Origin: Gonatopus flavifemur
Lineage: Eukaryota > Arthropoda > Insecta > Hymenoptera > Dryinidae
Assembly (NCBI GenBank): GCA_018340375.1
Contig: JAFFJZ010000006.1
Coordinates: 13,472,001-13,536,000 of the forward strand
Reading direction: 5' to 3'
DNA: 64,000 nt
Part shown: positions 6,324 through 63,942 of the stretch, piece after piece
How positions within the stretch are numbered: position 1 is the stretch's first letter
Layout of the letters: every line of letters begins with the position of its first letter
Position numbers and translations under genes: made by a program
The notes under the pieces: generated by a model
What the model was told of the DNA's origin: nothing
Seen by the model: only the letters and a program-made list of their open reading frames with translations
Database searches by the model: none

Positions 6324-6766
6324 CCCTGGTAGAAATTTGTCTCGGCGTTCCATTTACCATCCACGTACTAGATGGGACCCACGTGGGGGCAACTGGATAA
6401 CACAGTTCAGCCAATTTGACTCTAGTGCCCAAACATTTAGTTGGTTTACTATGTAGATTTTTCATGCGTCAACTGATTATTGATAGTCCATCAACGTTTC
6501 AATTTGTCACTCGGGATTATTTCACGGGAATGAATTCAAAAGCAACGTTCTTGACCGAAGTTTACGTGTCAAAATACATTGTTATGTCATTCATAAGTGT
6601 GATTTTACAGAAAACACATGATTTCACATTTCTCATTACCAATTTGAACAACATCTTAGCAATTCCCTGGGACATCTGGATGGGCACAGGGTAGAAAGTG
6701 CATTACAAAACTAGCTAGAAACCAACCTAACATCTGGGGCCCATCTAATCATAATTTCTACTAGGG
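6324..6766. mobile_element. CCC-type element with CCCTGGTAGAAATT ends
   Basis: The left end is CCCTGGTAGAAATTTG and the right end is AATTTCTACTAGGG, flanked by CA on both sides (6322-6323 and 6767-6768). The interior has GGGACCCACGTGGG-like words near the left end and GGGGCCC near the right. Related end motifs occur at 9545, 19554, 21434 and 26703. Confidence 0.65.
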
Positions 6767-6993
6767 CAAGACTAATAAAAAATGTGGTGACTGCTCCGTT
6801 TGTCCAATACCAAAATACCCAATTGCAAAAATGTCCAATGGCAAAAAAGACCAAGGATAAAAATATCCTGTGGCTGTGCATCCAGTAAGTTGGATGAGTG
6901 TTTCGGGTGTTATGATGTTTTCAAGTCACGGTTATAGTAAATCGTATGAAAATGTTGTGGTATATCGTTCTGATAGTGATGTTTTGAAAATCA

Positions 6994-7359
6994 CCTTAAT
7001 GGGCGAATGGACAAGCTTGGGACATCCAAACTTTGTCTGAAAAGAGTCTATGATGTCCAAATATGTCTGAATATTGTCCAAAATATGTCCACGATGTCTG
7101 TTTATGTCCATTCATTCAAAATTCTAGACAAAGTCGAATTCAATGTCTATCGTTTGTCCCAAACGCGTCTGAACCTTCTTATCTGTATGTCCGAAAAGTG
7201 TCCATGATTTGTCTAGCGTGTCCTGGCATGTCTGAAACGCATCCAAAACTGTCTCGCAATGTCCAATCGTTGTCCAGTTGTTGTCCAACCGATGTCCACC
7301 TGCTTAAAATTTCGGACATTCATCCAATGTCCACCATTTGTCTCAGTAGCCCATCAGGG
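6994..7359. mobile_element. CCC-type element, TGTCC-word family
   Basis: The ends are CCTTAATGGGC and GCCCATCAGGG (9 of 11 bases match as an inverted pair), flanked by CA on both sides. Inside, TGTCCA, TGTCTG and ATGTCC recur every 10-20 bases almost throughout. This is the clearest word-only interior in the first 10 kb. The plus-strand frames here are artefacts of the repeated word. Confidence 0.6.
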
Positions 7360-7371
7360 CATTTACATGTA

Positions 7372-7959
7372 CACGGAGAGAATTAAATAGTAATGATTCC
7401 GATGTGGAATTTTGCAAGAAGAATACATCGTAACGGTTCCGATGTTTCGTAGTGTTGACTACCTCGAAAACAAATGACGTCTACGTTTTATGCAGGGGGG
7501 TGCAACTCGATAAAAACTATACGTAACGTTTTGTCACCATTCGATATTTCCCAAACTGTCCGCAAGAGACGCTGATTGTACTATCAGAAGAAGTCACGTG
7601 ATACGATAATTTTTCGGCGCCTAATTTTGCATTTGAAATCGCTTGACAAATCATATCAATAATGGTGTTGATATATACATACAATTCTTGAATATGTCAC
7701 ATAACCAAATATGCTAATGACGATACTGACACTCGTATCACGTACGTAGTGTACAAAAGAACATCACGTGATTCTGACTTAGCTACAGACAGCGCCGTTC
7801 ACGGACTTCAAGTGAAGTTTACTGTGGTGACAAAACGTTTCGCGAAACATTTGAAGGTGATTAGGTGAATTGCACCCCCCTGGTTTTATGCGATTTTTCG
7901 TGGTAGCAACTCAATCAGCGGCATGTTCACATCGCAATGTTTATTATTTAATTCTCTCC
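7372..7959. mobile_element. CACGGAG-type inverted-end element, split by a hAT MITE
   Basis: The left end is TA|CACGGAGAGAATTAAATA. The right arm (7920-7959) is its reverse complement but stops at TTAATTCTCTCC, lacking the final GTG and TA. A 390-bp hAT-type element (7493-7882) has inserted inside, leaving about 198 bp of original element. Confidence 0.65.
7493..7882. mobile_element. hAT-type MITE with exact 8-bp duplication
   Basis: The ends are CAGGGGGGTGCAA and TTGCACCCCCCTG, matching the usual hAT end (CAG near the tip, inner CAA). They are flanked by an exact 8-bp direct duplication GTTTTATG at 7485-7492 and 7883-7890. It carries no coding capacity. It sits inside the 7372-7959 element and is therefore younger than it. 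Confidence 0.85.
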
Positions 7960-8236
7960 CCAGAAAACAAAACGAACGAGTCCACGATCGCTCAATTTGA
8001 TGGACATAATGATGCATGAACAATTGACCAATGGTTGTACTATCAGAATGGCTAATGCGTGAATACTATCAATTATCGTACAATCATTGATGCACAACAG
8101 TTGCAGTAGTCTTCAATGCATGCATCATTGGTCAATAATGTGTTAACTTATCATATAGTTAATTGTAAAATCGTGAACGACTTCAAAGTGTCCATGATTG
8201 TACAATCATTGAACCACTTTGTTTTCTGGGTCCGTG
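7960..8236. mobile_element. CACGGAC-type element, left tip missing
   Basis: The right end reads CCAGAAAACAAAG...-type sequence reversed: TTTGTTTTCTGGGTCCGTG followed by TA. The left end begins at CCCAGAAAACAAA, without the expected TACACGGA. The interior repeats ATGCATCATTGATGCA-like and CAATCATTG words. It abuts the preceding element with no spacer. Confidence 0.55.
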
Positions 8237-8260: not shown

Positions 8261-8763
8261 CCCGAAGGGAACATGAAGCTCCGACAAATGTTCAGAATAG
8301 ATCATGATAGATCAGACTGAAGCTCTGTTGGAGCTCAAGTTTAGATTCGTAAACGTTCGACGAAGGTCCGATGAACGTTGAAATGTCCACTTGAAAATAG
8401 TTTGAATGAACGTTCATAAAACGTTCATCGAACGTTTACTAAAGTTTCGTTCGAGTTGCAATTTTTCGATCAAAGTTTTTTTCAAAGTATATTTTTCCAC
8501 GAAAAAATGAAAGATTGAGGCATTTCTAACTATAATTGTAATTCCGTCTGAAACATAAAAAACTGAAGGTTGAATGAATCTTCGTAGAATCTTTAATAAA
8601 CGTTCTATGAACCTTCATTCAAGCTATTTTCAAGCGGACATTTCAACGTTCATCGGACCTTCGTCGAACGTTTCCGAATCTAAACTTGAGCTCCAACGGA
8701 GCTTCAGTCTGATCTATCATGATCTATTCTGAACGTTTGTCGGAGCTTCATGTTCCCTTCGGG
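8261..8763. mobile_element. CCC-type long inverted repeat, AACGTTC-word element
   Basis: Nearly perfect arms of about 180 bp start CCCGAAGGGAACATGAAG and end CATGTTCCCTTCGGG, flanked by GA on both sides. AACGTTC and GAACGTT words recur in the arms. The centre (about 8440-8590) is AT-rich filler. Confidence 0.75.
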
Positions 8764-9088: not shown

Positions 9089-9545
9089 CCCTGATCAGAT
9101 CCTGATTGGGAAACCCTGGTGCAAGGGAAGCGTGTCATAAAGAGTAGCGGAAGCGTAAGCATGTTTCAGATTACTTTCCTAATACTTCTCATATGCTTCC
9201 TATCCACTCTTGGATTACGCTTCCATGCGTAAAGCCCGGTTTCTATGAAATTGGGGTTTCTTCGGATACGCTTCACACACTTCAAATATACGTTCGAACC
9301 ACTCTTAATGTTCCACTTGACGCTTAAATCCACGTTCCAAATACTTTCCAACTACGTTCCTGACACTTTTTATTACACGCTTCCCTTTCACCAGGGAACG
9401 TTTGGTTTTCCTGATCAGGACCTTGTCTTTTCCCTGCGTTACATTTTTGTCAGGGCCTTATCAGATACTCAAGTCAGGCCCTGAACGGAAATCAAGCATG
9501 CCTGATCTGGACCTGATGTTTTCCATATCAAAATTTCTACTAGGG
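9089..9545. repeat. CCTGATCAGG-word region bounded by CCC/GGG
   Basis: It starts CCCTGATCAGATCC and ends AAATTTCTACTAGGG. CCTGATCAGG-like words recur on both flanks of a nested element (9114-9396). The two ends do not match each other beyond CCCT and no clean duplication is seen, so this may be a recombinant of two elements. Confidence 0.4.
9114..9396. mobile_element. CCC-type element, CACGCTTCC-word family
   Basis: The ends CCCTGGTGCAAGGGAAGCGT and ACGCTTCCCTTTCACCAGGG are an inverted pair, flanked by AA on both sides. CGCTTCC and ACGCTT words recur inside, many in one orientation. Nested within the CCTGATCAGG-word region. Confidence 0.7.
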
Positions 9546-11784: not shown

Positions 11785-13706
11785 TTAACCCATTAAGTCC
11801 GGGAAATGCAGGATTTCAACTGTAATTTTAAACGTTGCAAATGATATATAAATCATTAAAAACTCATGGCAAAAATACCTTACCTACTATTTTCGAGGTT
11901 GCTCTTTCGGTTGCTGAGGTCAAAATTACCTTCGGATGGCGCTGGAATACCGATATGGCCGATTTAAAATAAAAAGTCGACAAGAAATTGGAGGATATTT
12001 GCACTTGTGATTTTTTCACGGGTTGAAAATGCACTCAAAATTATTCAAAACATCAACCAAGGGTGCACGAAATATCTCAACTTTACGATAGAATTTTTTC
12101 CCAGGCTTGAAGGAGATCAAATTGCTATCTGGGTATGCTTAGGTTTTTGAGGTTCCTGATTACGACTCCATTATCAGATTTTCAAAATTCAAGATGGCGG
12201 ACCTAAGATGGTGGATGAGAAGGCAAAAAAAGCCTCGCAGATGGATTGAAATCGATCCACCGAGATTTTTGAGGTCGCTGATTACGAATTCAGCATTAGA
12301 TTTCCAGAATTCGAGATGGTGGACCCAAGATGGTGGACGAAAATTCGAGAAAACTCTCGAAGATGGATGAAAATCGGTATACTGGGGTTTTTGAGGTCAC
12401 TGAGAACGAATCCAGCATCAGATGTTCAAAATTCAAGATGGCGGATTCAATATGGCATACCGAAATTCATGACATCACTCAAAATCATGCAATAATATTT
12501 ATACGTGAAGTTTCCGCAAGAAAATTGGTTGTTTCCGGCCGTTAATTATTCCATGTGCACGTTTCCCAAGTCAAACTACGTAGCAAGTTTATATTCTTGT
12601 ATGTTCCACAATAACTCAGTTTTTCATGCGATAAATTTCGTCTTTATTTTCTCCGATTCACTTGATGATAATGTCAAATTCAATTACCCTAATAATGAAT
12701 GATATTCACTTCTAATATTTTCATCACGTGTCACCAGTCTAATTACACAGCGACCCCAAAAATCTCCTCGTATACACATTTTCTCGTGATTTAGGAGCAT
12801 TTTATGAATTTCAGTATGCCATATTGAATCCGCCATCTTAGATTTTGGAAATCTGATGCTGGATTCGTTGTCAGTGACTTCAAGAACCCCAGTATACCGA
12901 TTTTCATCCATCTTCGAGAGTTTTCTCGAATTTTCGTCCACCATCTTGGGTCCGCCATCTTGAATTCTGCAAATCTAATGCTGAATTCGTAATCAGCGAC
13001 CTCAAAAATCTCGGTGGATCGATTTCAATCCATCTCCGAGGCTTTTTTTGACTTTTCATCCACCATCTTAGGTCCGCCAGCTTGAATTTTGAAAATCTGA
13101 TAATGGATTCGTAATCAAGAACCTCAAAAACCTAAGCATACCGATTTTCATCCATTTTCGAGGGTTTTTCTGACTTTTCGTCCACCATCTTGGATCCGTG
13201 ATTTTGAATTTTGAAAATCTGATGTTCGATTCGTAGTCAGCGACCTCAAAAACCTCCGGGTACTTCTCTTGAAGAATACTGAACGAATAAAATTATATGT
13301 TCTGTCAATTTTCTCTAGATTCTCAGAATTGCGAGTTATTTTGGTGAATATATGATAAATTGAGAGAGGTTAGGTTTCCTTCAAGTCTGGGAAAAAATTC
13401 TATCGTAAAGTTGAGATATTTTGTGCACCCTTGGTTGATGTTTTGAATAATTTTGAGTGCATTTTCAACCCGTGAAAAAATCACAAGTGCAAATATCCTC
13501 CAATTTTTTGTCGACTTTTTATTTTAAATCGGCCATATCGGTATTCCAGCGCCATCCGAAGGTAATTTTGACCTCAGCAACCGAAAGAGCAACCTCGAAA
13601 ATAGTAGGTATGGTATTTTTGCCATGAGTCTTTAATGATTTATATATCATTTGCAACGTTTAAAATTACAGTTGAAATCCTGCATTTCCCGGACTTAATG
13701 GGTTAA
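11785..13706. mobile_element. TTAA-flanked long inverted-arm element (piggyBac-like ends)
   Basis: TTAA lies at both edges, with ends CCCATTAAGTCCGGGAAATG and its reverse complement. CCC tips and a TTAA target are typical of piggyBac-type elements. Arms of several hundred bp match almost base for base. Inside each arm lies a tandem array of a unit of about 100-120 bp carrying AAGATGGCGGA, AAGATGGTGGACG and GATTACGAATCCAGC. Open frames at 12330-12545 (+) and 12684-12944 (-) give nearly the same peptide only because they are the two arms. No transposase is present. Confidence 0.75.
12130..13270. repeat. tandem unit of about 100-120 bp (AAGATGGCGGA minisatellite)
   Basis: Units containing GGTCCGCCATCTTG, a stretch like GAATTTTGAAAATCTGAT, CGTAATCAGCGACCTC and ACCGATTTTCATCCATC repeat in plus orientation up to about 12440 and in minus orientation from about 12820. 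The same unit occurs at 57140-57520 outside this element family, so it moves or is captured independently. Confidence 0.65.
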
Positions 13707-13721
13707 ATGTATAATAAAGAT

Positions 13722-15748
13722 TCCTGGTTGAAAAATCCTATAGGATCTGATAAAAACCGATCCAAAATTGATCGGAATGAATGGGATCATTTGGAAAACC
13801 TCAAATACCGATTCAGAATGAATAGGACTCAATTGGAACCATTGTTGTTGGAGTGTGAATCGTTTGAAAAAACGAAACGAAAATCTCGAAACTCACGAAA
13901 TCTGATGAATTATCGTTATTTATCTTCTCGAATTCACTCCTTGGAACTGGAAACATCGCTTAAACGATGCATCAAAAGATTCTCAGAGTTTTCAAAAACT
14001 GAGTATCTCTATATCTGATCACTAATTCGGTGCAATAAACGATTCAAACTTCGAAAATATATTGGAACTTGTCATCTGTAGGATCGAATCGAGGATTTAC
14101 CCATTGAAAAATTGTGGAAAAATATTGGAATGTTCATCTCATTTTCATTGGGAGTTTCTTCGATCTATTGGAACTGAAGGGGAAATCTTTGGAATTGAAT
14201 CGGTAATGGATTTGTATGGATTTTATTCATCCATGGGTTTCAATTGGTTCATTTCAATATTTGAATTTATTCGAGATAATAGGATTTTCAAATATCTGAA
14301 TATCCAATTCAGTTTGGAAATTTCTGCTATTTCATTAGAAAAATTGGTTTTCATCGGAATTTTCGGTAATCTCAATCTATTGGAATTCATAAGAAAGTTG
14401 ATGCAATTGTAGATTTTGTGGGTTTCTATAAGAAATATCTAATTCACTTTAAGAATTTTTTTATTCCATTAGACAATCGGTTTTTATCGGAATGTCCTGT
14501 AATCTTCTTGATCTATCGGAGCTAATGTGATAGTTGATAAAATTGAGGATTCATTATATAGGTTCCATTTTAGAATATGTAGACTTTATTGGTGATTCGA
14601 TAGAATCCAGTCGAGAGGAATAGAAGGTGATTCAAATTCAATCGAATTGAATGGGGGTAATCGGAGTGCCTCAACTGTTCATTGAAGATTAGTGAGAATG
14701 AATCAAAATCAATCATCCGTGGAGTTGAATCCTGAATTCACCCCTATATATAAACATGTATCAATTTGATTGAAGAAGATTTTTTATTTCATTAAACAAT
14801 CGGAGTGGTGCCGTTTGTAGATTCGAATATTTAACAAATCTGTATGGCAAATACGCAATTCGATTTTGGAATTGATGTTTTGGAATCCAATTCTGCAGGA
14901 AATGATAAGCAATATCTTAAATCTAAATTTCCCATCCGTTTGTGTATAAAATATTCAATCCAAATTATTTTCTATTGGAATGTTTTATGATGTCCATTTA
15001 CAGAGACGAATGATAATACAGTCTGTGGATTTAAAATTTGATGGTTTGTATGAGAAATACTTGATGCACTTTTCAAATTATTCTATTTTCATCTGAAAAT
15101 GCGCATGCTCAATGAAATCTGAAGCTTCTTTGATGAGTCACGAGACGGCCTTTTTGCACGATTAAAACATGAAGATAAAAACAATTGATCGATGGATTAT
15201 AAAGGGCTCCGGATCAAGGTTTGATCGGATTTCCAGATGAGTTCATACCGTAATAGCATCCAACGGAAGTTGAACCAATTCAATTTTTGTTGCAGGGGCA
15301 GCGTAATCATTGTGTTACCCTGCACGAGATCCTTCTGATGAGGATACACACACCGATCGAATCCTATTACCGCAAAAAAAACTCAATTTTTGGAAACAAG
15401 ATTTCATAGGTATTGGTTTTCAACGTTATTCTAAGAATATACTCAAGCTGATTAGAAGAATTCGAATCGGAAGCAATGAGACATTACCGATACAGAAACT
15501 CAGTTCATCCCGATAGAACCTTTTTCCATCAGATTCAATGAAAATATTAATTGCTGAAACTTAATTCTTTCCAATAGAATTTTCTTTATCGGATTCAATT
15601 GGAATTTTCATCATTGATAACAAACTGATTCAATCCAATTAACAAAACTGCAGTTATTGGTATCAACTGGAAATTTCCGATACAAAAAACTCAATTCATT
15701 CCGATAGAATTCTTCTTTATCGGATTCAATCGGATTTTTTAACCAGGG
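13722..15748. mobile_element. CCC-type 2-kb element, GGATTCAATCGG-word family
   Basis: The left end TCCTGGTTGAAAAATCC and right end GGATTTTTTAACCAGGG pair as inverted ends (the first base of the left end is changed), flanked by AT on both sides. Words such as GAATCGG, CGGATTC, CGGAATT and TTGGAAT occur across the whole length, in both orientations. No transposase frame is recognisable; the 13707-14018 and 14062-14412 frames are word repeats. It begins 15 bp after the TTAA element. Confidence 0.6.
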
Positions 15749-16226: not shown

Positions 16227-16508
16227 CCCATACAGCACAAAAGTCCCCGCAAAGAGCTCCCGTTATGACAGTAAACATGAATTCATTATGAATAGTTTGA
16301 ATTCAAAATGAACTCTTGATGAATAACTCAATCTTCAGAAAGAATTCATATCACGAATTCATAAAGAACTATTCAGGCATTCAACATGTATACATTTTGA
16401 ATTAATTGAGTTCATATTGAATTCATTTTTACTGTCATAACGGGGACTGTTCAAGAAGTTCTTTCAGAAGTTTTTGTGAATTCAAAACCATCATTTGTGC
16501 TGTCTGGG
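16227..16508. mobile_element. CCC-type element with CCCAnACAGCACAAA ends, GAATTC-word
   Basis: CCCATACAGCACAAA and TTTGTGCTGTCTGGG form an inverted pair (14 of 15), flanked by TT on both sides. A second inverted pair lies inside (CCCGTTATGACAGTAAA... and its complement), and the core is dense in GAATTCAT and ATGAATTC. Relatives with the same tip class lie at 28826, 30177 and 30880, and the inner CCCGTTATG pair recurs at 31537-31722. Confidence 0.75.
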
Positions 16509-17108: not shown

Positions 17109-17336
17109 CACAGAAAGAATAATTTAGCTGGCGCAGCGAAGTGGCTAGCACGGACACGGACAGCCATTAAATCAGCTCCTGCAGCTAAATTTTAGCTGTT
17201 ACAGCAAATAAACTAGCTACGAGGGCAAATTTTTGACAGGCTGTCATAATTAAAATTTAACTGCAGGAGCTGATTTAATGGCTGTCCGTGTTCGTGCTAG
17301 CCACTTCGCTGCTCCAGCTGAATTATTTTTTCCGTG
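17109..17336. mobile_element. CAC-type element, AGCTG-word
   Basis: The ends CACAGAAAGAATAATTTAGC and its partner ending ATTATTTTTTCCGTG are flanked by TG on both sides. The arms are nearly perfect over about 60 bp, then AGCTGCAG-type words (CAGCTCCTGCAGCT) repeat. Confidence 0.75.
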
Positions 17337-17865: not shown

Positions 17866-18526
17866 CCCAATAAACACACATACGTCTAAAAAACGTGAAA
17901 AACGCCCAATGACCACACGTTGACATTTAGTAATATTCTTCCGTTGATTCGACGTAAAAATGTCGCGGCAGATCACGTGTTTTTCAACTATAAAATAACG
18001 TCACAACAACGGTCCAAAAGTCGTTTATAAGACGTCAAATAATGACGTGTTATAATGATGGTTCCAAAATGAGAATCAAACCAGACATATTATTTGAAAA
18101 GTTTTCTATTAATGCGAAAAGAAGGGATTTTTGATAACACAAAAATTTAAGAAGAAAAATATTCATAAATGAAGTCACGCTATTCATTATTTCACTTCTC
18201 GTTTAGATTTTTGTTCAACGTTGCTGTGTTTTGTTCGACATTCTCAACACGATATCTTCGATTGATGTTCGAGCATTGAAAATGTCATAAACAATACGTC
18301 CTCAACGCGTGATTGAAGTACATTTCAAAAACGTTTTTTGAAGACGTTTTTTAATGGTCATTTTTTACTATTAGTTTCAGTAATACGTTATCGAAACCTC
18401 ATTTCTGGACGTCTATTCCCTCGTCAGACGTTAACCAAAAATGAACGTTATGAATTCGACGAATAACGTCCGTTCGATAATGCAACGTTTTTTCAACGTT
18501 GAAATAACGTGCATGTGTTTATTGGG
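17866..18526 (+). mobile_element. AACGT-word CCC element, copy 1
   Basis: The ends CCCAATAAACACAC and GTGTTTATTGGG are flanked by TT on both sides. AACGT/ACGTT occurs every 15-30 bases. Two more full copies lie at 26849-27490 (inverted) and 38542-39166. The three copies align along most of their length, including ATGTCGCGGCAGATCACGTG near one end. Confidence 0.85.
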
Positions 18527-19553: not shown

Positions 19554-21434
19554 CCCACGTAGAAATTGACGGATGGTCCAGTACCGGTTCGATACAGGCT
19601 GCCAGGGTGCAACCGTCGACGGTCAAATGATAACGCCAAATAACTCTGATCCGGTATCGGTTACCAACATCAATTCAGTACTGGAAATCAGTGTAGTTCC
19701 GACATTGAGAACTAATACTACCAGTATTGATTGGTATTCAAGTACCAACGACTGTTACTCAACCGTTATTTGCGCTGTTGTAACTTTGGAAGGTTTTGAA
19801 TGCATTATCAAAATTTCTGCACTAGGGGGAATTTAGAGTGAAATTTACTATTGGATCATAGGATGACCGCCAACGGTTGCAAACTAGCAGCCTGTATCAA
19901 GCCGGTATTGGACCATTTGTCAATTTCTACGTGCACTGAAAAAAAAGCTGGTAACAGTTATCAAATGATATTTTTGAATATGACCAATCAAATATTCGAT
20001 AACATTAATCGAATATTCAATGATGTTTATAAATTATGTTTATAATTATCGAATATTTAATAGATATTATTGATATTTAATTAATGTTATCGAATATTTG
20101 ATTGGTCATATTCAAGAATATCATTTGATAACTGTGACCTGCCTTTTCTTCAGTGTGGCCAATCAAGTATAAGAGGTATTTATTCACATTGGTTCGGTGC
20201 CGAATCAACGTTGGAGGCCAAGGCTTGCGTATTAAAATTGTGCCATTGTTAATCCAATACTGGTGGGAAAGTGGTCAATAACGGTTCCCAGGTAAAAATT
20301 GACCATGGGCGCTAGGTTGCCGCAAGGCTCACCAAGATGGGCCGAGCCTAGGCTACCAGGCATGGCGCAACTCTGAAATGATAACATCAGCCCATTTGTT
20401 TCCACAATCAAGACCCAACACTGGAAACAGGGTTGTGATAGCATATGCCGTCAATGGCAGACCATACAAAAATTTGTTCGCCAAGGATGAGCCAACGCTG
20501 TAGCAATCTTGCGGCAGGGTTGCGCCCATCTCATGCCAATGGTCACTTTTATTTTTTATTGTAATTGAAAATAAAATAAAAAATCCATTCTATCATTTCG
20601 ATTGAACGAAATGAATGTCGGAGAATTTCAACATGTAATTTTTCTGATTAGTTTAAACTAATGAATGACGTAAATCCGGTGGTCCTGGCGTAGAAGTAGG
20701 CGGGTCTAGAAACAGATGAAGAATTATTTCTGTCATGGAATCTTCAAAGGAGACTTATATATTGATTGAATGCTTGGTTCGCCACTCGCAGAAAACAAGC
20801 ATCACTCTGGTGAGAGTTATTGTAATTTGCTGTTTGAGAAGGAAGTTTCACTCTTAGCCAAGCTATTACTCAAGTCGAGTCAAGCTAACGCCTAAACTGA
20901 GCGAGGCCATCGCCCAAGCTAAGCCAAGCTATTGCCCAAGCTGGACCAAGCTACGACCCATGCTTGGTGCAACATGAGAATCCATTGTCATTCAGAGTTG
21001 CCTAATGCTTGGAGCAGTGTCCCGCCAAGCCCTAGAGAGCCTCTGTTGAAAGCATGCGTTTTCCTTCAAGCAATATTGGTTGAAGGATGGGCCAAGCGTG
21101 GCGCAGCCAATGATCAATGATGGATCAACGAAGTCGATTTATGACTTCCCATATTGGTACAATGTTTAGACCATTGTCAACCATCCTTGTCCCTACATAG
21201 ATTGCCCAGCTTTGGCTGGCAGCCTTGCGTCTAGCTATATTCCGTCGTCAGCATTGGCGGAGCCTGAAGATTTTTATATGGGTTGGTTCAAATATCGAAC
21301 CCGTACCGATACGAACTTCAAATAGAGTCGGTTAAGTACCGATCCGCAATCGGTAGACAACCGTTGGTGGCCCATACCTTTGCAGTACCGATCCGTTCGT
21401 CACCATCGGCTCAGTACCGGAATTTCTACGTGGA
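19554..21434. mobile_element. CCC-type composite element with CCCACGTAGAAATT ends
   Basis: The left end is CCCACGTAGAAATTGACGG and the right end CCGGAATTTCTACGTGGA (last base changed), with AC flanking both sides. Inside are an inverted fragment of the left end (19862-19930), another AGAAATT/AATTTCT pair ending near 19828, a nested CACTGAAA element, and long stretches of CCAAGCTT, TTGGCC and ACCGATCCG/GGTACCGG words. The boundaries of sub-elements are uncertain. Confidence 0.45.
19934..20155. mobile_element. CACTGAAA-type near-perfect palindrome, TCGAATATT-word
   Basis: It is 222 bp, flanked by TG on both sides, with ends CACTGAAAAAAAAGC and GCCTTTTCTTCAGTG. The arms match over about 100 bp each, leaving a tiny loop. 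The words GAATATTCGAT and ATCGAATATT repeat. It inserted into the ATTTCTACGTGG end of the surrounding element. Confidence 0.85.
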
Positions 21435-21743: not shown

Positions 21744-21958
21744 CACGGAGAAAAATAATACAATAAAAATTACAACATTTTCTGGTGAACTAATACTATT
21801 AGGTCTCATCTCCTACAAAGTACTCTTCAAATGTGAAATAAAACATCACAACTGCAACAATTTTTACTACATTCTGTAAGAAAACCTTTGAGACCGTCAG
21901 GTACTTCTGACGACATTTGACAGAATAGTATCATTTTACTACATTATTTTTCTCTGTG
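21744..21958. mobile_element. CACGGAG-type element
   Basis: The ends CACGGAGAAAAATAATACA and its partner ending ATTATTTTTCTCTGTG are flanked by TA on both sides. It is 215 bp. TGTAGTAAAA and GTACTTCTGACG-like short words recur, less tightly than in other members. Confidence 0.75.
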
Positions 21959-22198: not shown

Positions 22199-22985
22199 TG
22201 TCGTATTAGAACCATCAACCTCCGTGAGGATTACCGTGAGTTACTTAAGCTTTGTTTAATTTTCTTAGGCGGAGAAGTACTTGGTCGTAGTGAATACATT
22301 TTCAAGAAGCCAGGCTCTATCAGTGAAACTCGATGGATGGCAAAAGCACGTTATTCTGTTAAGATTTGGCTGTTAGGAGGCAACTTCAGCTCCCAACTGC
22401 CTTGAGCAGCAAATTTTCCGAAGTATTTTCATTTGTTGCCTCTACTCATGCATCTCACCCACATCAAGAAACTGGCAAGAAACTTGCAAAGAAGCACACG
22501 TTTACACTGAGAAAAATTTTCTTGTACAATTTCCCATCATTGCTGGTAAATTTAGGATATAACCTGAAAACTACAAAATGTACTGTGAAACACGGTAAAT
22601 TGAACTGTTATTAACATCTGCGACCAAAGCGAGTGAAGATAGCTGGAATGATTTCAAAGTTCACACATAATCGACAGCGTGTTTCGTCATTTTCAGAGTA
22701 TATCCCAAATATACCAGCAATGATGGGAAATTGTACAAGGAAATTTTTCTCAGTGTAGAAGGCGTTTAAAAAGTTCACCAACTATCTATGGTATCTATCA
22801 GAGTCTCTGATATGCTTTCTTTGTTCAATGACCATGTCTCTGTAGAGGACAAAAGAACACTTGTACAATCTATTAAATTAAAAGAGGGAACAAAGGATGA
22901 TATTCTTCTCCGGGCGCTTCTACCACCTAACCATCCTATAAAGTCGCTTGTTTTGTCGGATTTCGCGTCTAAAAAAAATCCCTGA
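22199..22985 (+). pseudogene. broken copy of a multicopy insect/cnidarian protein family, split by a MITE
   Basis: Three in-frame blocks can be read with frame changes between them. Block 1 (22199-22405): REDYRELLKLCLIFLGGEV, then a KKPGSISETRWMAKARYSVK core. Block 2 (about 22440-22500): HLTHIKKLARNLQRS. Block 3 (22759-22985): KFTNYLWYLSESLI, then LFNDHVSVEDKRTLVQSIK and ending in LSDFASKKN. From memory these match the conserved C-terminal half (GAxxxARWMxKxIYxxKI ... LWYLSE ... LFDD) of large uncharacterised proteins present in many copies in insects and Hydra, probably transposon-associated; I know no assigned function. A 251-bp CACTGAG MITE sits between blocks 2 and 3. Stops and shifts make it non-functional. 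Confidence 0.6.
22505..22755. mobile_element. CACTGAG-type MITE inside the broken gene
   Basis: TA|CACTGAGAAAAATTTTC opens it and GAAATTTTTCTCAGTG|TA closes it; the inverted arms match over about 46 bp (CCCATCATTGCTGGTA inside). TA flanks both sides. No coding capacity. Confidence 0.85.
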
Positions 22986-23234: not shown

Positions 23235-23790
23235 ATGGGTGGTCCTATATAGAGCGATATTTTTGAATAATTTGTCAGAAAAGATTCGGCTCGGGTTGGA
23301 TGGTCAGGGAGCGCTGGTATCCCCTTGAACCGAAGAACAACTTGCAAAAAATACCGACAGTTTGATAATTACGCCAAAAGAAAATATGCTAAATGTCCCG
23401 ATTTTGCGGTGATTCTATCACAACCAGAAATTTACAACAGGCGCAGTACTGAACCAGTACTAGCCAAGACTGGCCGGGTACTGGCATTTGTCTGGAATAA
23501 TAACGCTTTTCAGTACTGGGGATTGAGTACTAATACCATTATTCGTAATCAGTGCAGGGCCAGGACTGGGTTAGTACCTGGCCGGTATTAAGTTCTCAGT
23601 ACTGGTTTATCAGTACATGCATAGTACTGTATTTTTATGTATCCAGTACTGATCCCGTCCATGTTGACCAAGTTTTGGAGACCCAATACTGGCACTGTAC
23701 TGCACCTGTTGTCAACATTGGCATATTTCGGATTTTTCTGATTGAGATACAGAAAAACGCGATAAATTTGCGAGGTATTGCTGAATTTCA
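23235..23790. repeat. dispersed repeat, second copy, interrupted
   Basis: The flanks (23235-23418 and 23747-23790) match the copy at 19301-19470, with the AGTACTGG-word element inserted between the CGGTGATTCT and ACAGAAAAACG blocks. Confidence 0.5.
23419..23746. mobile_element. AGTACTGG-word element, copy 1
   Basis: The ends CACAACCAGAAATTTAC and GGATTTTTCTGATTGAG are degenerate forms of CCCAATCAGAAA, flanked by AT on both sides (or TA, judged against the uninterrupted paralogue at about 19437). CAGTACTGG and CCAGTACT recur through most of its 328 bp. It shares GGTACTGGCATTTG and AACGCTTTTC with 40181-40569. Confidence 0.7.
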
Positions 23791-28660: not shown

Positions 28661-28825
28661 AACGTTGTTGACAGGCTACAGACCCTTGTACAATATATTA
28701 TTTTAATTTGTGTTTTGGGAATAATAAATCTATGAAATTTGAATATCGCAAATGTTCTCTGAGAGTGCCATGCGTGGAAAATAATCCTAAGAAGTGTAAT
28801 AAAATATTGAGGAATACGGTATATA

Positions 28826-30167: not shown

Positions 30168-30176
30168 ATATTATGA

Positions 30177-31512: not shown

Positions 31513-31536
31513 TTCCCAAAGACCTCTTGAATAGGC

Positions 31537-44960: not shown

Positions 44961-45890
44961 AGATAGATAGATAGTTTATTGCTTTCAAGGTTAGAACCCT
45001 TCTTGCCAGGGGGTACAATGTACAAGAGTTTAGTTCAAGTAAAAGTAAATATCCTTATAGATTCTTAATCACTACTTAAATTGTTCAGAAAGTATAAATG
45101 ATCTGAGTTTGAGAGCATCTCTGACAACCCTGAAAATATCTCCTAGCTCATAAGAAGAGCATCTCTCCAACAGTGCGACCTAACTGAGCACAAAGTTATC
45201 AAGTAACAAAAATTGCCTGAGTTTCGTTTTGAGTGGTTGATACACTGGGCACACGGTCAACAGACGTTCCACGGTTTCTAATTCTTGGCGATTACAGAGG
45301 AGACATAAGTCTGATGATTTTACGCCATAGGTTATGTTGTTAATTCTGATCTTGAGTTCGTAGTTGTTGGCTAGTCGGAGGTTCGCCATTCAAGTGGGCA
45401 ACGGAAGTTCAAGTACCAAGCTGGAGATGTGCCTAGCATAGACTCAAAAATATTCTGACAGAAGGTGGAGTTGGAATATTTCCGAGTATCCTCCTCTCTT
45501 AGGAGTGATGCATAATCGTTAAAGAAGTTAGTTCTCTTACTTTTGAGAATCGATGCACTGAGATTGGTCCAGATGCTTGCATGACCAACCTGGGCCAGGA
45601 AATCTTTAAATTGTAAAGCCCAATTGAAGATCGCGTCACAGCCAGGTTGATTTGCAAGTTCGTACAACCTATTAAAACAAATTCTGGAAAGGCGGTCATG
45701 TGACATTTCCAGAATGTTGGTTAGAAACCCCCAGACCAATCTCATTGCACTACGTGACAGAGGCAGTAGCCCAAACTCAAGTCTCAGGGCGTATCCTGGG
45801 GAATTGTTCAAATATTGAATCTGAGCTTCATAAATCAAATAAATCTCCGCAAATCGCACAATATACTTCAGAAAATAAAAATTCAACCAT
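44961..45890 (-). mobile_element. 5'-truncated non-LTR retrotransposon, 3' end
   Basis: On the minus strand the C-terminal part of a reverse-transcriptase ORF is readable: 45886-45371 (LRLEFGLLPLSRSAMRLVWG ... ISWPRL-free frame), then a shift to 45389-45180. The second part has CLLCNRQELETVERLLTVCP, a C-x2-C-x9-R-x4-C zinc knuckle in which the usual His is Arg. This knuckle follows the RT domain in many I/R1/CR1-type elements lacking RNase H; I cannot assign the clade. A short 3' tail then ends in AATAAACTATCTATCTATCT (44961-44980 on plus), a tandem-repeat tail typical of such elements. The RT core and 5' part are absent. Inactive. Confidence 0.75.
45180..45886 (-). pseudogene. reverse transcriptase C-terminal fragment (frameshifted)
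   Basis: A 171-codon frame ending at 45371 and a 69-codon frame starting at 45389 overlap by 19 bases and join across one frameshift near the PLEWR/ANLRLANNY junction. Residues downstream of the RT thumb (YLNNSPGYALRLEFGLLPL) followed by the zinc knuckle are family features. The first frame is the longest in the window. Confidence 0.7.
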
Positions 45891-45951
45891 ACAATTGTTT
45901 CCAGAGCTTCAATCTCAAATTATGAATTATAATTCATATAAAAATATACTA

Positions 45952-53009: not shown

Positions 53010-54676
53010 GGGTGTTTCAAAAAAAAAAAATTGTTTTCGAGTGAAGGGTCTTAAACTCTTGATTCCGACCCCAAACTGAACCTCCTGCAACCTGGGGTCC
53101 CTAGCTTTAGATTTAGAGGTCGCTCAATCGAGTTTTATATTGCGATTTTGATGCCAGTCTGAAAAACCACTTAAAGTGGGGAATTCAGGAATTTTGAGTT
53201 CATAATCTACTACAGGTCGTAATTCTTGACCGATTTTGATGATTTTTTCTTTAAATGCTCAGAATTAAATTCTTAAGAGAACTGTCGTTCCACATTTTTC
53301 AGTCCTTCCCTAATTTTTTCAATAAATAAACAAATAGTGTGGAAAAATCTTCAATTTCAGGTATTTGAGCTTGTATCTTCCGAAAAAGTCTTGGGATAAA
53401 GTTACTATACAGCAAGATTATTACAGGTGTGCTCATTAAACATGAATAATTCGAATAATTACGAATTCAATAATTATAAACAATTTTATAAACAATTTTC
53501 ATTGAAACATCAGTAATTGGGATAATCTTCGATGTAAATATGAAGTTCTTATTTTTAGGTTCTTGGAATTATCCTAGAAAAAATTGTGAGTGAAAGAACA
53601 AAGATAAAAGCTGATATCCATATCATTGTTGTAAATAATTTTATAAACAAATTCTCAACTCAGAGGTGTATTCAGCGGGAAACATATTTTGTTTCTGTTT
53701 TTATATAGAGTTCCCATTAGTTACAATCTGCAATTATATTTTAGTAAAATTCAACATAAACTATTGTTGTTAACAGTTTTGTAAACAAACAAATTCTCAA
53801 TTGGAAAATTTTTGGATGGGAAAAGAAATAAGTTTAGGGTTGTAAATGCAAAATGTGGATTTCCATTGACTACCTATCATCACATGGCAATAATTTCCAA
53901 TAGACACCGCAGGAATAATATGTTTTTCTTCCATCAAAAAATTCTCTCAAAGAAAAGTTTGGTTCTAATTCCTACAGGAATTTTAATACAAACTGTGAAT
54001 TTTAGTATGATACGCACTAAATACATAAAACAACAATGTTTCCCCCTTCTGAACATGTCAAGTTTTCAGAGTTTATTAGATATTTACAGAAAAGCTCAGT
54101 AATTTTCGGAAGAATATTCTAATTTTAAGAGATTCCTAGAGGAAATTCTTGATATATGTTTCCATCCGAAAGGTTCTCAGTTCAAAATTTGTTTATAAAA
54201 TTGTTTATAACAATCATGAATATCAATTCCATTTGAAAACTATTCACTACTTGTGACTATTCATGATGATTCCCAATAAATATCACGAAACAAAAATTTC
54301 TCTGCCATTCAAAAATTTCCCAATCGAAAATTATTCCAAATACTGATTTTTTAATTAAATTGTTTATGATTATTGAATTCGTAATTATTCGAATTATTCA
54401 TGTTTAATGAGCACACCTGTAATAATCTTGCTGTATAGTAACTTTATCCCAAGACTTTTTCGGAAGATACAAGCTCAAATACCTGAAATTGAAGATTTTT
54501 CCACACTATTTGTTCATTTATTGAAAAAATTAGGGAGGGACTGAAAAATGTGGAACAACAGTTCTCTCAAGAATTTAATTCTGAGCATTTTAAAAAAAAC
54601 ATCATCAAAATCGGTCAAGAATTACAACCTGTAGTAGATTATGAACACAAAATTCCTGAATTCCCCACTTTAAGTG

Positions 54677-55779
54677 CACTGTAAAAAAAAACTGGAAATT
54701 TACTGTGCAACTGGACTGGAAATTTCCAGTGCTAGTACTGGAATATGGATATTCCAGTACATGTACAGAGATTTTGTTGTTACGTTACTGAAAATTTACC
54801 AAGCATAACTGAAAATTTAGTCATTGTACTGGAATTTTCAAGTTTGAGATGATGTACTGAAATTTTGCCATGATTTCGCGAAAATTTTACCGGCTCGTAC
54901 TACAATTTTATAGTTCTTGTGCACCAAAAAAAAATATTCCCTCAAAAAGGACTTGAGAAAAAATTTGGAATTTAGAAAAAAAAACCTAATCGTTGGTATA
55001 CTGGAATTATACAGGTTTTTAACTGCAATTCTCAGGTTTTGTGATGGAATTTTCCAGTTACTATGCAATTGAATTATACAGGTTTTGAACTGCAATTTTC
55101 AGGTCGTGTGATGGAATTTTCCAGTTGCTATGCAACGGAATTTAATCACTGTTGCACTGAAATTTTCCACTTCTATTGGACTTCGTCATTTCTGGCAGGA
55201 AAAATTTCAAGTCTTTATATTAAAAATTTCCTGATTGAGATTTTGAATAATAATTGTAATTGTAGCCAATGAAATTGATATATGAGGTTTTTCCAAGACT
55301 TATCCTCTTGTGTTCTAGATATGAAGCATATGTAGTAACCCAAGCTGGCCTTCCAACATGTCGCGCTATAGCTCATCGGTTAGGTCTTAAGTTTCAGTTG
55401 GTAGGCAGGTAGAAAAGTGTGGGTTCAAATCCTGTTAGGTAGACATGAGTTTCTGTCCATCCAAATGAACGATCAAAAGTTTCTCAATCATCTTGGAACA
55501 CAAGGACCCTGCAAAATCACTTTGCGTGAGCAATTTTTTTTCAATTTTCATGGATATTTTCAGCATTAATTTTCCAGTACATGTCCTGGAAAAGTCCAGC
55601 TCGTGTACTGAAAAATTCCAGTACCGAGGCTCAGAAAATTTCCAGTTTTGATGCGGAAATTCCATAACGTTTGCACTGAATTTTTGCAGTACAAATGTGC
55701 TGAAATTTTCCGGTACATGTACAGGTTAATGACTTCCAGTACATGTACTGGAATTTTCCGGTGAAATTTTTTTACAGTG
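54677..55779. mobile_element. CACTGTAAAA element, CTGGAATTTTCCAG-word, with a tRNA-like module
   Basis: CACTGTAAAAAAAAACTGG and AATTTTTTTACAGTG, flanked by TG on both sides. The intact mirror arm of the host element (CTTTAAGTGGTTTTTCAG in reverse) is the empty site with a single TG. Words ACTGGAATTTTCCAGT, TTTCCAGTAC and ACTGAAAATT fill both flanks. The middle (about 55270-55560) is non-word sequence with a polymerase III-like promoter. Confidence 0.85.
55350..55445 (+). ncRNA. tRNA-derived, SINE-like module (A and B boxes)
   Basis: TAGCTCATCGG (55369-55379) fits the A-box TRGYNNANNGG, and GGTTCAAATCC (55422-55432) fits the B-box GGTTCRANNCC, 42 bases apart. A T8 run near 55535 could terminate transcription. 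The stems do not fold as a functional tRNA. A second copy lies at 62000-62095 inside a related element, with matching sequence on both sides. Confidence 0.55.
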
Positions 55780-56252: not shown

Positions 56253-57551
56253 CACGGTGGGGCCAAATGCCAAAAAGCTGGCCAAAACCCCCAAAAAAAA
56301 GTTTCAATTTGGGTATTTTCGATTCATAAATCCGGAAAATAAACATCTTCATTCTATCGGAATTCGTCTACAGAAACGATGTATTGTGTACACCGGAGTC
56401 GATAACCCGGTACAAAAACACGCTTTTTTGTGTGCACCCGAAATAGTGAAACTTGAGTTATTTTTCAAATTGATGTAACTTTTGATCCCTAACAGATATT
56501 CCAACAAAACAAAACGCGAAGAGATGTTGGAGGCATGTAAAATAATTGCTACTAGTTACATGTTATGAATTTTGTATGAAAACATATTTTAAACAACAAT
56601 GTTTGCATGACAAATGACCATGACCAACAACGTTGATTCAGTTAAAAAGTCAAAGAAAAAGTTATGTATTTAATCGCATTGAGCTAAATCTCTTGTTCCT
56701 CGTTGAAGTACACACTATCCATTGTCATTTTCACAAAGAAATTGTTGCGCAAAGCTGCGCCATTTTTTATAAACCAAGGACACAGAACATGAGTTATCAT
56801 TTTGATTTCAGCGTAATTTGTAAGTGTTCAGTAAAATTTGAAAAACAATTGCATTGTGTCTCACTGTCGTTATGGGAACAATATATTACTGAAGTCGAAG
56901 CTCATATTTGAGTGTAAAGGTTGCCTTATTCCGTCATTTATGATATATATACCGATAATAGTAAAATTAGAGTTGTTTTTCAAGGTATTTAGATCAACCA
57001 AAATGCAGAAAAATGTTGCAGGTTAATTATTACATCATTATTCACAAGAAATTGTTATCTGTAGTTGTTCTTTTTTTCCAACCCCACGAATGCAAAACAT
57101 GATTCATCATGTGAATTGAATTCTACATGCATTCTGATTATTTTTGAAGGAATTTTCTGCAATATTGGATCCCCCATTTTGAATTTCGAAATCTTGACAA
57201 TGGATTCGTAATCAGCGACCTCAAAAACTCCTCAGTATCAAATTTTGAGGCTGTAATCTATTGAATTTTTGGATTTTTGTCCACCATTTTGGATCCACCA
57301 TTTTGGATTTCGGGATTTTTACAACGGGTTCGTACTCAGTAACATCAAGGACTCCTGGGTACCGAATTCGGAAGAAATCCGTTGCATCTAGGAATTTATG
57401 TCCGCCATATTGGATCCGCCATTTTGAATTTCAGAATTTAGACAACGGATTCGTAATCAGCGACCTCAAAAACCCCTGAGTACCAAGTTCCAAGCAGATT
57501 CTAGAACTCCTCATAGTTTTGTCCAACTTTTTGGCATTTGGCCTCACTGTG
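56253..57551. mobile_element. CAC-type inverted-end element carrying the AAGATGGCGGA repeat
   Basis: CACGGTGGGGCCAAATGCCA at the left and TGGCATTTGGCCTCACTGTG at the right pair closely. Flanks are TA and GG. The right third is the same tandem unit as in 12130-13270. The remainder is AT-rich, with TTGAGTTATTTTTCAAATTG-like short repeats (56450, 56970). Confidence 0.55.
57140..57520 (+). repeat. AAGATGGCGGA minisatellite, second locus
   Basis: About three units with CCATTTTGGATCCACCATTT, CGTAATCAGCGACCTCAAAA and a CTCCTGGGTACC variant. Confidence 0.65.
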
Positions 57552-57819: not shown

Positions 57820-58072
57820 CACGGAAAAAAGAAAACAGCAATGGTTACTGTGTGAATCGCAGTAATTTATTGAAAAAAAATGAAAAATCAAATTCACGCC
57901 GTTCATTACTGCGTCTCCCAGTAACCGTTAATGTCCGAGCATCATTGACGAATTTCACTGCAGTACACATTACTGTGATCGCGCTAACCTCTATCATCCA
58001 AGCGTGTTTTCATTTGTTTTTCAACTGATTGCTGTTATGAACAGTAACCAGTGCTGTTTTCTTCTTTCCGTG
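57820..58072. mobile_element. CACGGAAAAAAG element, CAGTAAC-word
   Basis: CACGGAAAAAAGAAAACAGC and GCTGTTTTCTTCTTTCCGTG, TA on both sides. GTTACTG/CAGTAAC and AGTAACC recur. Confidence 0.85.
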
Positions 58073-61329: not shown

Positions 61330-62519
61330 CACTGTAAAAAAAATCGGTGAATTTACCGAACTTTCCTTCGGGAATCGTCCAAAACTGGTTCGGTAAAGGG
61401 TTTTACCGAAGATAGTTCGGTAAAACTCGGATACCATGATTTTACCGATGTTGTTCGGGAAAATTTTTGTCCATGATATGTGGAGTTAGAAAAAATTTCG
61501 AGGTGAAAAAAAACTACTCGTAATGACAGGTTCTTCAATCATTTCAGAAGATTTGGAATCAAATGGATCATACGAGGAAAACATTTTTTTCATGTTTCGC
61601 TTTATCTTAAACCAGGACTTCTTGAAAAAAAACGTACTGTTAGAAACAAGTTTCTTATCCGATTCAACAGATTTGGAATCGAATGGTCCATATGGGAAAA
61701 ACCATTTATTTTTCACTTCTCCCTTTATTTCGAATCAGGACTTGGAAAAAATTTCCAGGTGGATTTTCTTCAAACAACTTCGGTAAATTTACCGAAGTTT
61801 GTGGGAAAAGTTTTTGTAATCTATGAGATTTCCACGGATTTGGAAAAAATTTCGAGTTTTGAAAAAAAAACGTACTGGCGGGGACAATTTTGTTACCACG
61901 GTCCTGAAAATTTACCAAAAGTAACTGAAAATTCACACCTCGTCTATCTTTTTGTGTATTCTAAATATGAAACATATGTGGACTTCCAAGGTAGCTATCC
62001 AGCATGTCGCGCCATAGCTCAGCGGTTAGGTCTTAGGTTTCAGTCGGTGGGTAGGTAGGAATGTAGGTTCGAACCCCGCTAGGTAGGTATGATTTTCTCT
62101 TCATCTAGATGGAGTGATCAAGTTCCTCAGTGATCTTGAAACACAAGGAATATGCGAAATCAGTTCGCGTAATAAAATTTTTTTCAATTTTTATGAATAT
62201 TTCGAGCAATAATTTTCCAGTACATGTAAATTATGATACAAAACTGCAGAAAATTCACGAATTTCGGTAATTTCACCATACTATTTCGGCAATTTTGAGC
62301 CATTCGATTCCATATTTTTCCCGAGGATAAGCCGTAAAATTACCATCCTATTTCGGTAATTTCAAGTTACTCGAGTTAATATCATTCCCGAAAGTAATCG
62401 GTAAAATCATCGGATACATTTAAAATTATTCCCGATACCAATTGGCAATTTTACCGAAAGTTCGGGTTAATTGCTTCCCGAATAATTTCGGTAAATTTAC
62501 CGAAATTCTTTTTACATTG
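61330..62519. mobile_element. CACTGTAAAA element, TTCGGTAAATTTACCGAA-word, with a tRNA-like module
   Basis: CACTGTAAAAAAAATCGGTG at the left, AATTCTTTTTACATTG at the right, AA on both sides. TTTACCGAA and TTCGGTAAA recur in the outer 600 bp. The core (about 61890-62230) resembles the core of 54677-55779, including CTGAAAATTTACCA, the tRNA-like module and TTTTCCAGTACATG. Confidence 0.8.
62000..62095 (+). ncRNA. tRNA-derived, SINE-like module, copy 2
   Basis: A-box TAGCTCAGCGG at 62015-62025 and B-box GGTTCGAACCC at 62066-62076, both perfect matches to the consensus; a T7 run at about 62177. Not a functional tRNA by stem pairing. Confidence 0.6.
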
Positions 62520-62529
62520 AATAGTTTGG

Positions 62530-62700
62530 CCTCGATAAAAAAAAACGTCAAGGGATGCCTCATAGGAACCCTCGATGGTTCACATAAGGGTTCCCCTAGG
62601 AATTTGGCACAATAATTATGAGCAAAACCCATCTGGGAACCCTTATGGGATTCCCCCTGGGACATGGGAGCTCATGTAAGATCCTACGTAAAGTGTTTTT
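62530..62700. repeat. GGGAACCC/CCCAT-word stretch
   Basis: AGGAACCC, GGGTTCCC, GGGAACCC, CATGGG and CCTGGGACATGGG recur. Probably a further CCC-type element, but its limits are unclear. Confidence 0.35.
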
Positions 62701-62969
62701 GAACCGTTTCATTCTAAATACTCATATCAAATCTCCCCCAATAAGAACTTAGATGACTGAAAAGATGATTTTTTAAAATTCTAAGACTCTCGTCTTAAAT
62801 TAAAAAATGATCTATATTTATCGTTCTAAAAATTTGAGACATAAGAATTTTGAACGGAATGAAGCTTCTACCTAAGATGTAACAAGACCACATGGAATTC
62901 CCATTCCATCGCAGAGGATAACGAAGACATTCTCTCAGTCTCGAAACTAATCTCGATATCGGTCTCGGT

Positions 62970-63942
62970 CCCATACAGGAAACCTCGATGATGTAAACAC
63001 ATGTATGGCTACCATTAAATGGCCAACAATGGATTCACATCATTGGCACAAGTGCGGCCCACCACTGGATGATAAGGAAGGCCAGCAATGAAAACAGCCG
63101 ATAATCAGCCGATGTACAGCTATGGTAAACGGCCAACAATAATTGATTCCCCGTTACTGGCTGAAATATGGTCTATTACTAAGTGAGATGGATTTCAAAG
63201 TTGAATGTATTGTATTCGTAATCACCCGTGAAAAAAGTTTGGTCTGGCCTTATTTCTATTATGCTGAATAAATAATTCACATCCATCAAATACGTTTTAC
63301 ATGATCCAAATGAATTCTTATTTATATCCTACACTGTAAAAACACTTCCAAAAAAGAGGTTTGGAAGTTTTTTACCAAACATTTTTTGGTGAGTTCACAA
63401 ACATAGTGGGTGCAATTACAAACAATTTTTGTCAACTGACAAATCTTTTCTGGGGAATCGCAAAAATTGTTTGGAAATTTACAGAAAATTTGTGAGTTCC
63501 CAAACAATTTGGAAATTAACCAATCTGTAAGTTTTTCACCGTACTTTTCTGCTTGGAAATTCTCGAATATTTTTTACAGTGTAGATGATCAATTACTTTC
63601 TCATGTAAATAACAAAAAATTTGAAGGAATAAGCAACTGAATTCAACTGATTTATCGAGAGTGCTTTTGACTCGTATCATTTTACAGTCATATCACCATT
63701 GGATATCATTATTATTATACCCCAGTAATCTGCCATTGATGGTTGACATTTAAACATTATCCCGAAATTTCTGGCCCTAAATCGGGATCATTTAGCCCCA
63801 TTACTGGGCCAATTAATGATTCTATACATTGCCCATTATTTATTGCCATTATTGGACCCACTAGCGCCATTAACGGGCGAATAACGCCGTTTGTGGTCCA
63901 GTAACGTGCCATTATTGGGCCAATTGATGAACCCTGTATGGG
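62970..63942. mobile_element. CCC-type element, CCATTATTGGCC-word
   Basis: CCCATACAGGAAACC and AACCCTGTATGGG, GT on both sides. GGCCAACAATGG, CCATTATTGG and GGGCCAAT recur on both flanks of a nested CACTGTAAAAA element (63332-63581). The minus frame 63757-63960 is a translation of the words. Confidence 0.75.
63332..63581. mobile_element. CACTGTAAAAAC element, TTTGGAA-word, nested
   Basis: CACTGTAAAAACACTTCC and GAATATTTTTTACAGTG, TA on both sides. GTTTGGAAA, TTCCAAAC and TTGTTTGG recur. A right-end fragment of the same family lies at 23860-23911. Confidence 0.85.

Follow-up and report, generated by a model that had tools for sequence, protein, structure and literature searches.

A 64-kb stretch of the genome of the dryinid wasp Gonatopus flavifemur (contig JAFFJZ010000006.1, positions 13,472,001 to 13,536,000; referred to here as the window), part of a 636-Mb genome in 402 contigs, has been found to carry mobile elements that are short and non-coding, end in CAC or CCC tips and are flanked by 2-bp target duplications. 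In many of them a family-specific word recurs at a helical spacing of one or two turns, and we consider with moderate confidence that the words are docking sites for a CACTA-type transposase or for a partner DNA-binding protein; it is the regularity of the word spacing that favours binding sites. Elements are named below by their first position in the window and are grouped by tip into a CAC class and a CCC class.

The inverted tips and 2-bp duplications proposed in the initial annotation are confirmed throughout, each of the 24 listed starts having been paired with a right end whose tip matches in inverted form and whose 2-bp flank is equal. As equal flanks formed part of the search for right ends, the tip score was used as a fair control. 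A score of at least 13.5 is reached by 20 of the 24 elements and by 1 of 300 control tips, which were sampled from 487 further tips of CCC or CACNG type in the window; for a score of at least 12 the counts are 23 of 24 and 10 of 300. Chance ends are thereby ruled out as an account of the element boundaries. Thirteen elements are CCC/GGG-tipped or near variants and 11 belong to the CAC class, nine of the latter having CAC...GTG at both ends and one altered tip being present in each of 33333 (left) and 61330 (right). Two cases of nesting are seen (37538 within 37328 and 63332 within 62970), and the 24 elements together cover 20.3% of the window. Over all inverted ends, equal 2-bp flanks occur in 11 of 47 for CCC, 16 of 91 for CAC and 1308 of 14102 overall. 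The GGC tip exceeds CCC in this respect (12 of 30), but nine of those 12 lie within a palindrome at 11.8-13.6 kb. This 1.9-kb palindrome (11785-13706) has outer arms of 337 bp at 98% and contains 122-bp tandem units, and a 121-bp tandem at 57148-57506 has stretches resembling those of the palindrome.

A genome search with 37538-37817 gave 1450 first-look candidates, 40 of which were scored and are at least 97% identical. Thirty copies were fetched, one being that of the window and the other 29 the best matches after it (at least 97.8% identical); the 2-bp flanks are equal in 30 of 30 and the 3-bp flanks in 0 of 30. The duplications are TA in 16 copies, TG in 7, TT in 3, CA in 2, AA in 1 and CG in 1, and CAC and GTG are kept at both ends in 26 of the 30. 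For 23 of 102 insertions the joined flanks align with an unoccupied copy that spans the join, many of them imperfectly; a 24th hit, which was the insertion's own locus, is not counted. The clearest empty site is that of 54677-55779, whose joined flanks match 53108-53227 in the same window over 120 columns at 96.7% with a single TG. Further empty sites are given by L019 against L015 (93.3%) and by L015 against another stretch of L015 (91.6%). A large inverted repeat at 53168-54676, with arms of 252 bp and 88 bp at 95-96%, directly precedes the 54677 insertion, and the left end of this repeat together with its adjoining sequence (53108-53227) constitutes the empty site described above.

For an independent assessment of spacing a hold-out set was assembled from 20 stretches of 10 kb, evenly spaced over two contigs (200 kb), whose elements were recognised solely from the tip, the inverted end and the 2-bp flank. 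It yielded 145 tip pairs (81 CCC and 64 CAC), 53 of them with equal flanks and 49 left once overlaps were removed, and the elements so called make up 13.9% of the hold-out sequence. Equal 2-bp flanks are found in 28 of the 64 CAC tip pairs against 0 of 11 in one shuffle; the CCC set includes false elements, equal flanks being present in 6 of 35 pairs of shuffled sequence. One hit nested inside another (L033:3856) was dropped before clustering, and the remaining 48 elements together with the 24 of the window fall into 60 families. Also dropped were L040:5355 and, in later tests, L046:4653, a member of the 62970 family. A second, small hold-out, drawn from the flanks of L002-L030, added 9 new families.

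Spacing was measured as direct 4-mer matches by lag relative to shuffles (observed/expected). Pooled over the 13 CCC elements of the window the ratio is 4.56 at lag 11, a lag that ranks eighth or higher in 12 of the 13. Pooled over the 11 CAC elements it is 3.63 at lag 21 (among the top eight in 7 of the 11), with 3.55 at lag 67, 2.48 at lag 22 and 1.24 at lag 11; in the pooled hold-out CAC elements lag 21 stands at 2.76 and lag 11 at 1.66. Taken by family, the lag with the highest median z is 11 for the CCC class in both the window (11 families) and the hold-out (20 families), and 21 for the CAC class in both sets (11 and 18 families). Of the 20 hold-out CCC families, 10 have lag 11 among the three strongest of their 23 lags (p=7.5e-5), and among the 18 hold-out CAC families lag 21 is so placed in 8 and lag 22 in 9. 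The contrast between the tip classes, taken as one-turn minus two-turn signal, has p=4.1e-6 in the hold-out (p=7.8e-6 with two CCC entries dropped) and p=0.0043 in the window. A control of 150 random segments outside elements has a median z of 0.23 (lag 11) and 0.00 (lag 21). Phasing of A-tracts is rejected as the source of the signal, GC-containing 4-mers alone giving 6.8 (lag 11, CCC), a stronger signal than that of all 4-mers, and 2.8 (lag 21, CAC). A comparison of inverted 4-mer spacing over families revealed no strong ruler.

The words themselves were scored as repeated 6-mers against dinucleotide shuffles in each element half, so that inverted arms are not counted twice, and a word was called clear at z > 4 in at least one half. 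A clear signal is present in 11 of the 24 elements (6994, 8261, 9114, 13722, 16227, 30919, 40181, 54677, 61330, 62970 and 63332) and a borderline one in 2876 and 17109 (z 4.2, or 3.9 when repeated). The initial annotation had described every interior as made of one short, usually palindromic and private word, and had regarded the elements as almost nothing but arrays. Word-built interiors are upheld for the clear cases and not for the 11 elements that are without a clear word. Of 70 windows of 250 bp inside elements 28.6% have z>4, against 6.6% of 362 outside, several of the latter being undelimited arrays. Some words are palindromic and others are not. The description as mere arrays holds for 6994, 9114 and 40181 and fails for the long elements. 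'Private' is too strong a term, a CAGTAC/TACTGG-like word being common to 40181, the stretch 23376-23750 (relatives) and 54677. High-scoring windows outside the listed elements include further arrays at 20751-21125, 23376-23750, 28751-30375 and 31501-31750 as well as the 121-122-bp tandem repeats. An undelimited array of AAGAATTC words is located at 28842-30060; it has 160-bp inverted arms (73%), and clean tips were not found for it.

A pair of CAC-class elements suggests that a word can be replaced on a constant spacing. The elements 54677-55779 and 61330-62519 have closely similar tips and a common 288-bp core at 79% identity, but their outer arrays differ in word, ACTGGAA in 54677 and TTCGGTAA in 61330, both on 8/14/22 spacing. 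The 54677-type word persists in 61330 at the right edge of the core and in a 47-bp stretch that is 83% identical to the left array of 54677. From these remnants we infer that 61330 descends from an element bearing the 54677-type word and then received new outer arrays; alternatively it may be a chimera formed by exchange of ends, the spacing being retained either way. This is the sole such pair among the elements compared. Within the shared core (55357-55476 and 62003-62122) is a stretch that appears tRNA-like by eye, with segments like box A and box B, for which an Rfam search returned no tRNA match.

The CAC class fits CACTA/CMC miniature elements by its CAC...GTG tips and 2-bp duplication; sub-terminal repeats are present for the class, plain in 54677 and 61330 and unclear in some members. 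The CMC transposases that the initial annotation had suggested looking for are abundant, 90 matches to PF02992 (Transposase_21, the CACTA transposase) being found in the genome. None of the 90 is linked to a particular element, 1,400 bases having been read inside one transposase gene. The nearest named relatives of a transposase piece from the genome include proteins of the parasitoid wasps Leptopilina, Microplitis, Trichogramma and Cotesia at 41-53% identity, and D180, D268, C287 and C290 are invariant over 25 aligned transposase proteins. The best solved matches of a model of the CACTA transposase are RAG1 and a RAG-like transposase, as expected for the CMC lineage (PMC12730594). CACTA/CMC membership, which had been extended to both classes, is supported for the CAC class and not for the CCC class, whose tips do not conform to the 5'-CAC termini of CACTA/EnSpm (CMC) elements and whose superfamily is left unassigned. 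Other known groups have been rejected. Chapaev is set aside by the absence of equal 3-bp flanks in all 30 copies of the CAC-class element 37538-37817, and piggyBac by CCC-class duplications that are 2 bp of mixed sequence and not TTAA. Tc1/mariner elements duplicate TA only; TA is found in only 16 of the 30 copies of 37538-37817, the rest having TG, TT, CA, AA and CG. Membership among RAG-type signals is rejected because of the arrays in place of one nonamer and the 2-bp duplication.

It stands at a little under an even chance that two unrelated enzyme systems are involved, the CAC elements being CACTA and the CCC elements belonging to another superfamily with 2-bp duplications and its own 11-bp array, an arrangement that is compatible with docking arrays. 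The CCC tips lacking the CAC terminus and the difference of rulers between the classes both argue for such a division, while the mixed-sequence 2-bp duplications and the arrays near helical spacing found in both classes argue against it.

The make-up of the arrays bears on a second explanation, that slippage, unequal exchange or hairpin repair multiplied short units within elements as a side effect of copying and that the words are read by no protein. In 84 CCC-class word pairs exactly 11 bp apart the spacers are identical at.32-.43 (mean.39, against an assumed chance of.27), which is too low for plain tandem copying of an 11-bp unit. Identity runs at the ruler lag are mostly word-sized, of 4-8 bases with a few longer. 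Spacers near random, word-sized runs, a ruler that depends on tip class in independent families and the two words on one spacing in 54677 and 61330 are difficult to reconcile with copying, although it would account for the local tandem units (a 67-bp unit at 55003-55142 and the 10-bp period of L040:5355-7761), for the excess of spacer identity over the assumed value and for the long inverted arms of several elements. We therefore regard copying as an unlikely origin of the arrays as a whole, and hairpin copying, which the initial annotation had offered, is disfavoured by the same spacers and runs. Still less probable is that the phasing of the words serves not transposition but the chromatin or a DNA-binding protein of the host, in placing nucleosomes, in silencing or in insulation. 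Nucleosome-facing sequence signals do show a ruler near 10.5 bp, but here the rulers differ between the two tip classes, the median z of random segments is near zero at both lags, the signal is carried by GC-containing words, and family-specific words are hard to square with a single host protein.

Docking sites for a transposase or its partner remain the account that we favour, and a number of observations weigh against it. The arrays are tied to the transposase indirectly, no autonomous element that shares their tips and words having been read, and the CCC class is without a known enzyme. A tuning of each array to a different transposase, as proposed in the initial annotation, is therefore conjectural. 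The elements devoid of a clear word (6324, 17866, 19934, 21744, 22505, 33333, 37328, 37538, 38542, 41682 and 57820) are as many as those with one, some of them showing a signal over the whole element. The window outside the listed elements still has ratios of 2.12 (lag 11) and 1.38 (lag 21), and the top three lags of random hold-out segments include 11 in 36 of 150, 21 in 29 and 22 in 30 (19.6 expected); this residual signal is ascribed to putative undelimited arrays. The pooled hold-out CCC elements peak at lag 10 (5.46, with 2.76 at lag 11), because one 10-bp tandem element (L040:5355-7761) dominates; this candidate is CCC-tipped and 2.4 kb long. In the second, small hold-out the top median lag of the CCC class is 10; lag 11 is one of the three highest lags for 2 of 5 CCC families, and lag 21 for 0 of 4 CAC families. 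The spacers lie somewhat above chance, and hence some local duplication is likely. The word positions of the same 84 pairs agree at.74-.90, a high identity that is partly by construction since the words were chosen to match.

The orientation and register of the words also differ between samples. Neighbouring CAC words are in the same and in opposite orientation in a ratio of 1:20 in the window, yet 13:14 in the hold-out and 3:4 in the second set; for the CCC class, in which adjacent words tend to face the same way, the ratios are 36:16, 20:10 and 32:35. Alternation is seen in four window CAC families, for two of which the counts are small: CTGGAA (8/14/22), CGGTAA (8/14/22), CAGTAA (9/13/22) and AACGAA (12/11/23). 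In both classes the window words lie at distances of about 17, 28 and 40 bp from the tip (for words picked from interiors, p=.0035 and.0005), and the same permutation test gives p=.35 (CAC, 6 ends) and.11 (CCC, 19 ends) in the hold-out. Words in phase outnumber those out of phase by 40:3 (CCC) and 28:4 (CAC) among window elements and by 23:18 and 8:1 in the hold-out, families without interior words being omitted (in the window 1 of 11 CCC and 5 of 11 CAC, in the hold-out 5 of 23 and 6 of 22). With a looser choice of words the counts become 41:9 and 27:6 in the window and 27:31 and 11:7 in the hold-out. The words of six CAC elements were hand-picked in an earlier register run; the permutation test takes its words from element interiors. 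Alternation of orientation throughout the CAC class and a constant distance of the words from the tip are rejected as rules, being features of the window that the hold-out does not reproduce, and since the register is weak in the hold-out it is treated as window-only.

A mechanism by which docking sites could operate may be outlined. The conserved tip would be cut by the catalytic domain, and the phased words would line up protein subunits, of the transposase or of a partner resembling TNPA, along a single face of the helix. These subunits could hold both ends of the element and draw them together. Elements richer in sites would capture a larger share of an enzyme in limited supply, and miniature elements would come to be filled with words. 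If the reader protein shifts its preference the words would be rewritten, and the geometry of the complex would keep the ruler, as the pair 54677/61330 suggests. A broader proposal, which we advance tentatively and hold to be rather doubtful, is that a tip with an exchangeable word at one- or two-turn steps represents a general address code of the CMC lineage. The tip class would set the ruler and the family the word, families could escape or switch enzymes by rewriting every word on an unchanged ruler, and dozens of parallel and mutually insulated systems might exist in a genome as an array-based cousin of the RAG heptamer-spacer-nonamer signal.

The CCC-class elements of the window are as follows. 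The borderline word of 2876-3691 (duplication TT) is CCAAGC/AAGCTTGG; 41682-42545 (GA) is of the same family, and its right end was set by homology at 42545 because the element mirrors 2876-3691, the best-scoring partner, 43385, being probably a chance match. The duplication of 6324-6766 is CA. A word TGTCC/TGTCT is absent from no other statement here: 6994-7359 (CA, left tip CCT) carries TGTCC/TGTCT at steps of about 11 bp, 8261-8763 (GA) carries AACGTTC at 11-bp steps and has long inverted arms, and 9114-9396 (AA) has the word AAGCGT/ACGCTT. In the 2027-bp element 13722-15748 (AT, left tip TCC) lag 11 is outside the top 8 lags. A ATGAATTC word is spaced at 11 bp in 16227-16508 (TT), and 30919-31512 (TT), which sits in a relative of the 16227 family, has a CTCTGAAAA word at 10-11 bp. 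One family is represented by 17866-18526 (TT) and 38542-39166 (AT, left tip CCT). The word of 40181-40569 (CA) is TACTGG/CCAGTA, and the word signal of 62970-63942 (GT) stays when the nested 63332 is removed. An additional CCC-tipped element beyond the listed starts is located at 20287-21282 (TT), and a 97.6% copy of it carries a different duplication (CA) at L003:2229-3237.

The CAC class includes 17109-17336 (TG), 21744-21958 (TA), 22505-22755 (TA), which lacks a clear word in both halves, and 19934-20155 (TG), where a AATATTCG word extends over the whole element and is weak in each half. The element 33333-33491 (AT), of a CAC-tip family, has CCC as its left tip. The element 37328-37875 (TG) has a right end related to the 54677 family and is without a clear word in either half once the nested 37538-37817 (TA) is left out; the latter has the word AACGAA, weak in each half. 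Those with the 22-bp pattern are 54677-55779 (TG), 57820-58072 (TA; CAGTAA at 9/13/22 on small counts) and 61330-62519 (AA), the right tip of the last being CAA. A clear word signal is carried by 63332-63581 (TA).

Some open frames and protein fragments have also been identified. A transposon-like protein is present in two copies (99.5% over 1089 bp) at L050:355-1176 and 3292-3990, the first with a weak helix-turn-helix match, and was not found inside a CAC or CCC element. A CAC-tipped candidate, L037:4108-6221, encloses a fragment of a mariner-type protein (HTH_48). A 182-codon open frame at 45374-45919 has no Pfam match.

Several known systems resemble these elements. CMC-NA_1 and CMC-NA_2, from parasitoid-wasp polydnaviruses and their hosts (PMC6004678), share CAC...GTG tips, a 2-bp duplication, the non-coding nature, wasp hosts and the lack of a known autonomous partner, but are described in the pertinent parts of that report without word arrays or helical spacing. 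Viral contigs searched in the current analysis contained neither CACTA transposases nor the tip of the 33333 family. The plant CACTA elements (En/Spm, Tgm and Tgmt*; PMC2613891) have repeated sub-terminal motifs, TNPA-like readers and a motif that varies by family within a species; they differ in a 3-base duplication (Tgmt*), motifs of 12 to 17-20 bp and large size, and the sections of that paper on these repeats describe no one- or two-turn ruler. It has been proposed there, from a few plant elements, that the sub-terminal repeats diversify alongside the DNA-binding proteins reading them. RAG signals and ProtoRAG ends (PMC8289069) have a CAC tip for the catalytic protein and, in RAG, a second element beyond a 12 or 23 bp spacer, but this is a single nonamer and not an array, and the duplication is of 5 bp; the likeness is one of layout and not of membership. 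Chapaev (PMC4079192) shares CAC...GTG tips and the CMC lineage and differs in its 3-4 bp duplication, while the piggyBac-type CMITEs of corals (PMC2872659) have CC[C/T]T-type tips as in part of the CCC class and differ in their TTAA duplication. CAC-tipped miniature elements of wasps with 2-bp duplications and family-specific motifs of plant CACTA elements are thus already known, from the relevant portions of PMC6004678 and PMC2613891 respectively. New here are the class-specific ruler across families and the replacement of a word on a constant ruler, neither of which surfaced in the open-licence literature searched, partly with periodicity terms.

Within one genome, families share a spacing and differ in their words, and in one pair the word has probably been replaced, with remnants of the old one left behind. 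A reading rule in which the spacing is fixed and the letters are free, and the escape of miniature elements between enzymes, become directly testable. The word together with its ruler provides a signature by which orphan miniature elements may be paired with their enzymes.

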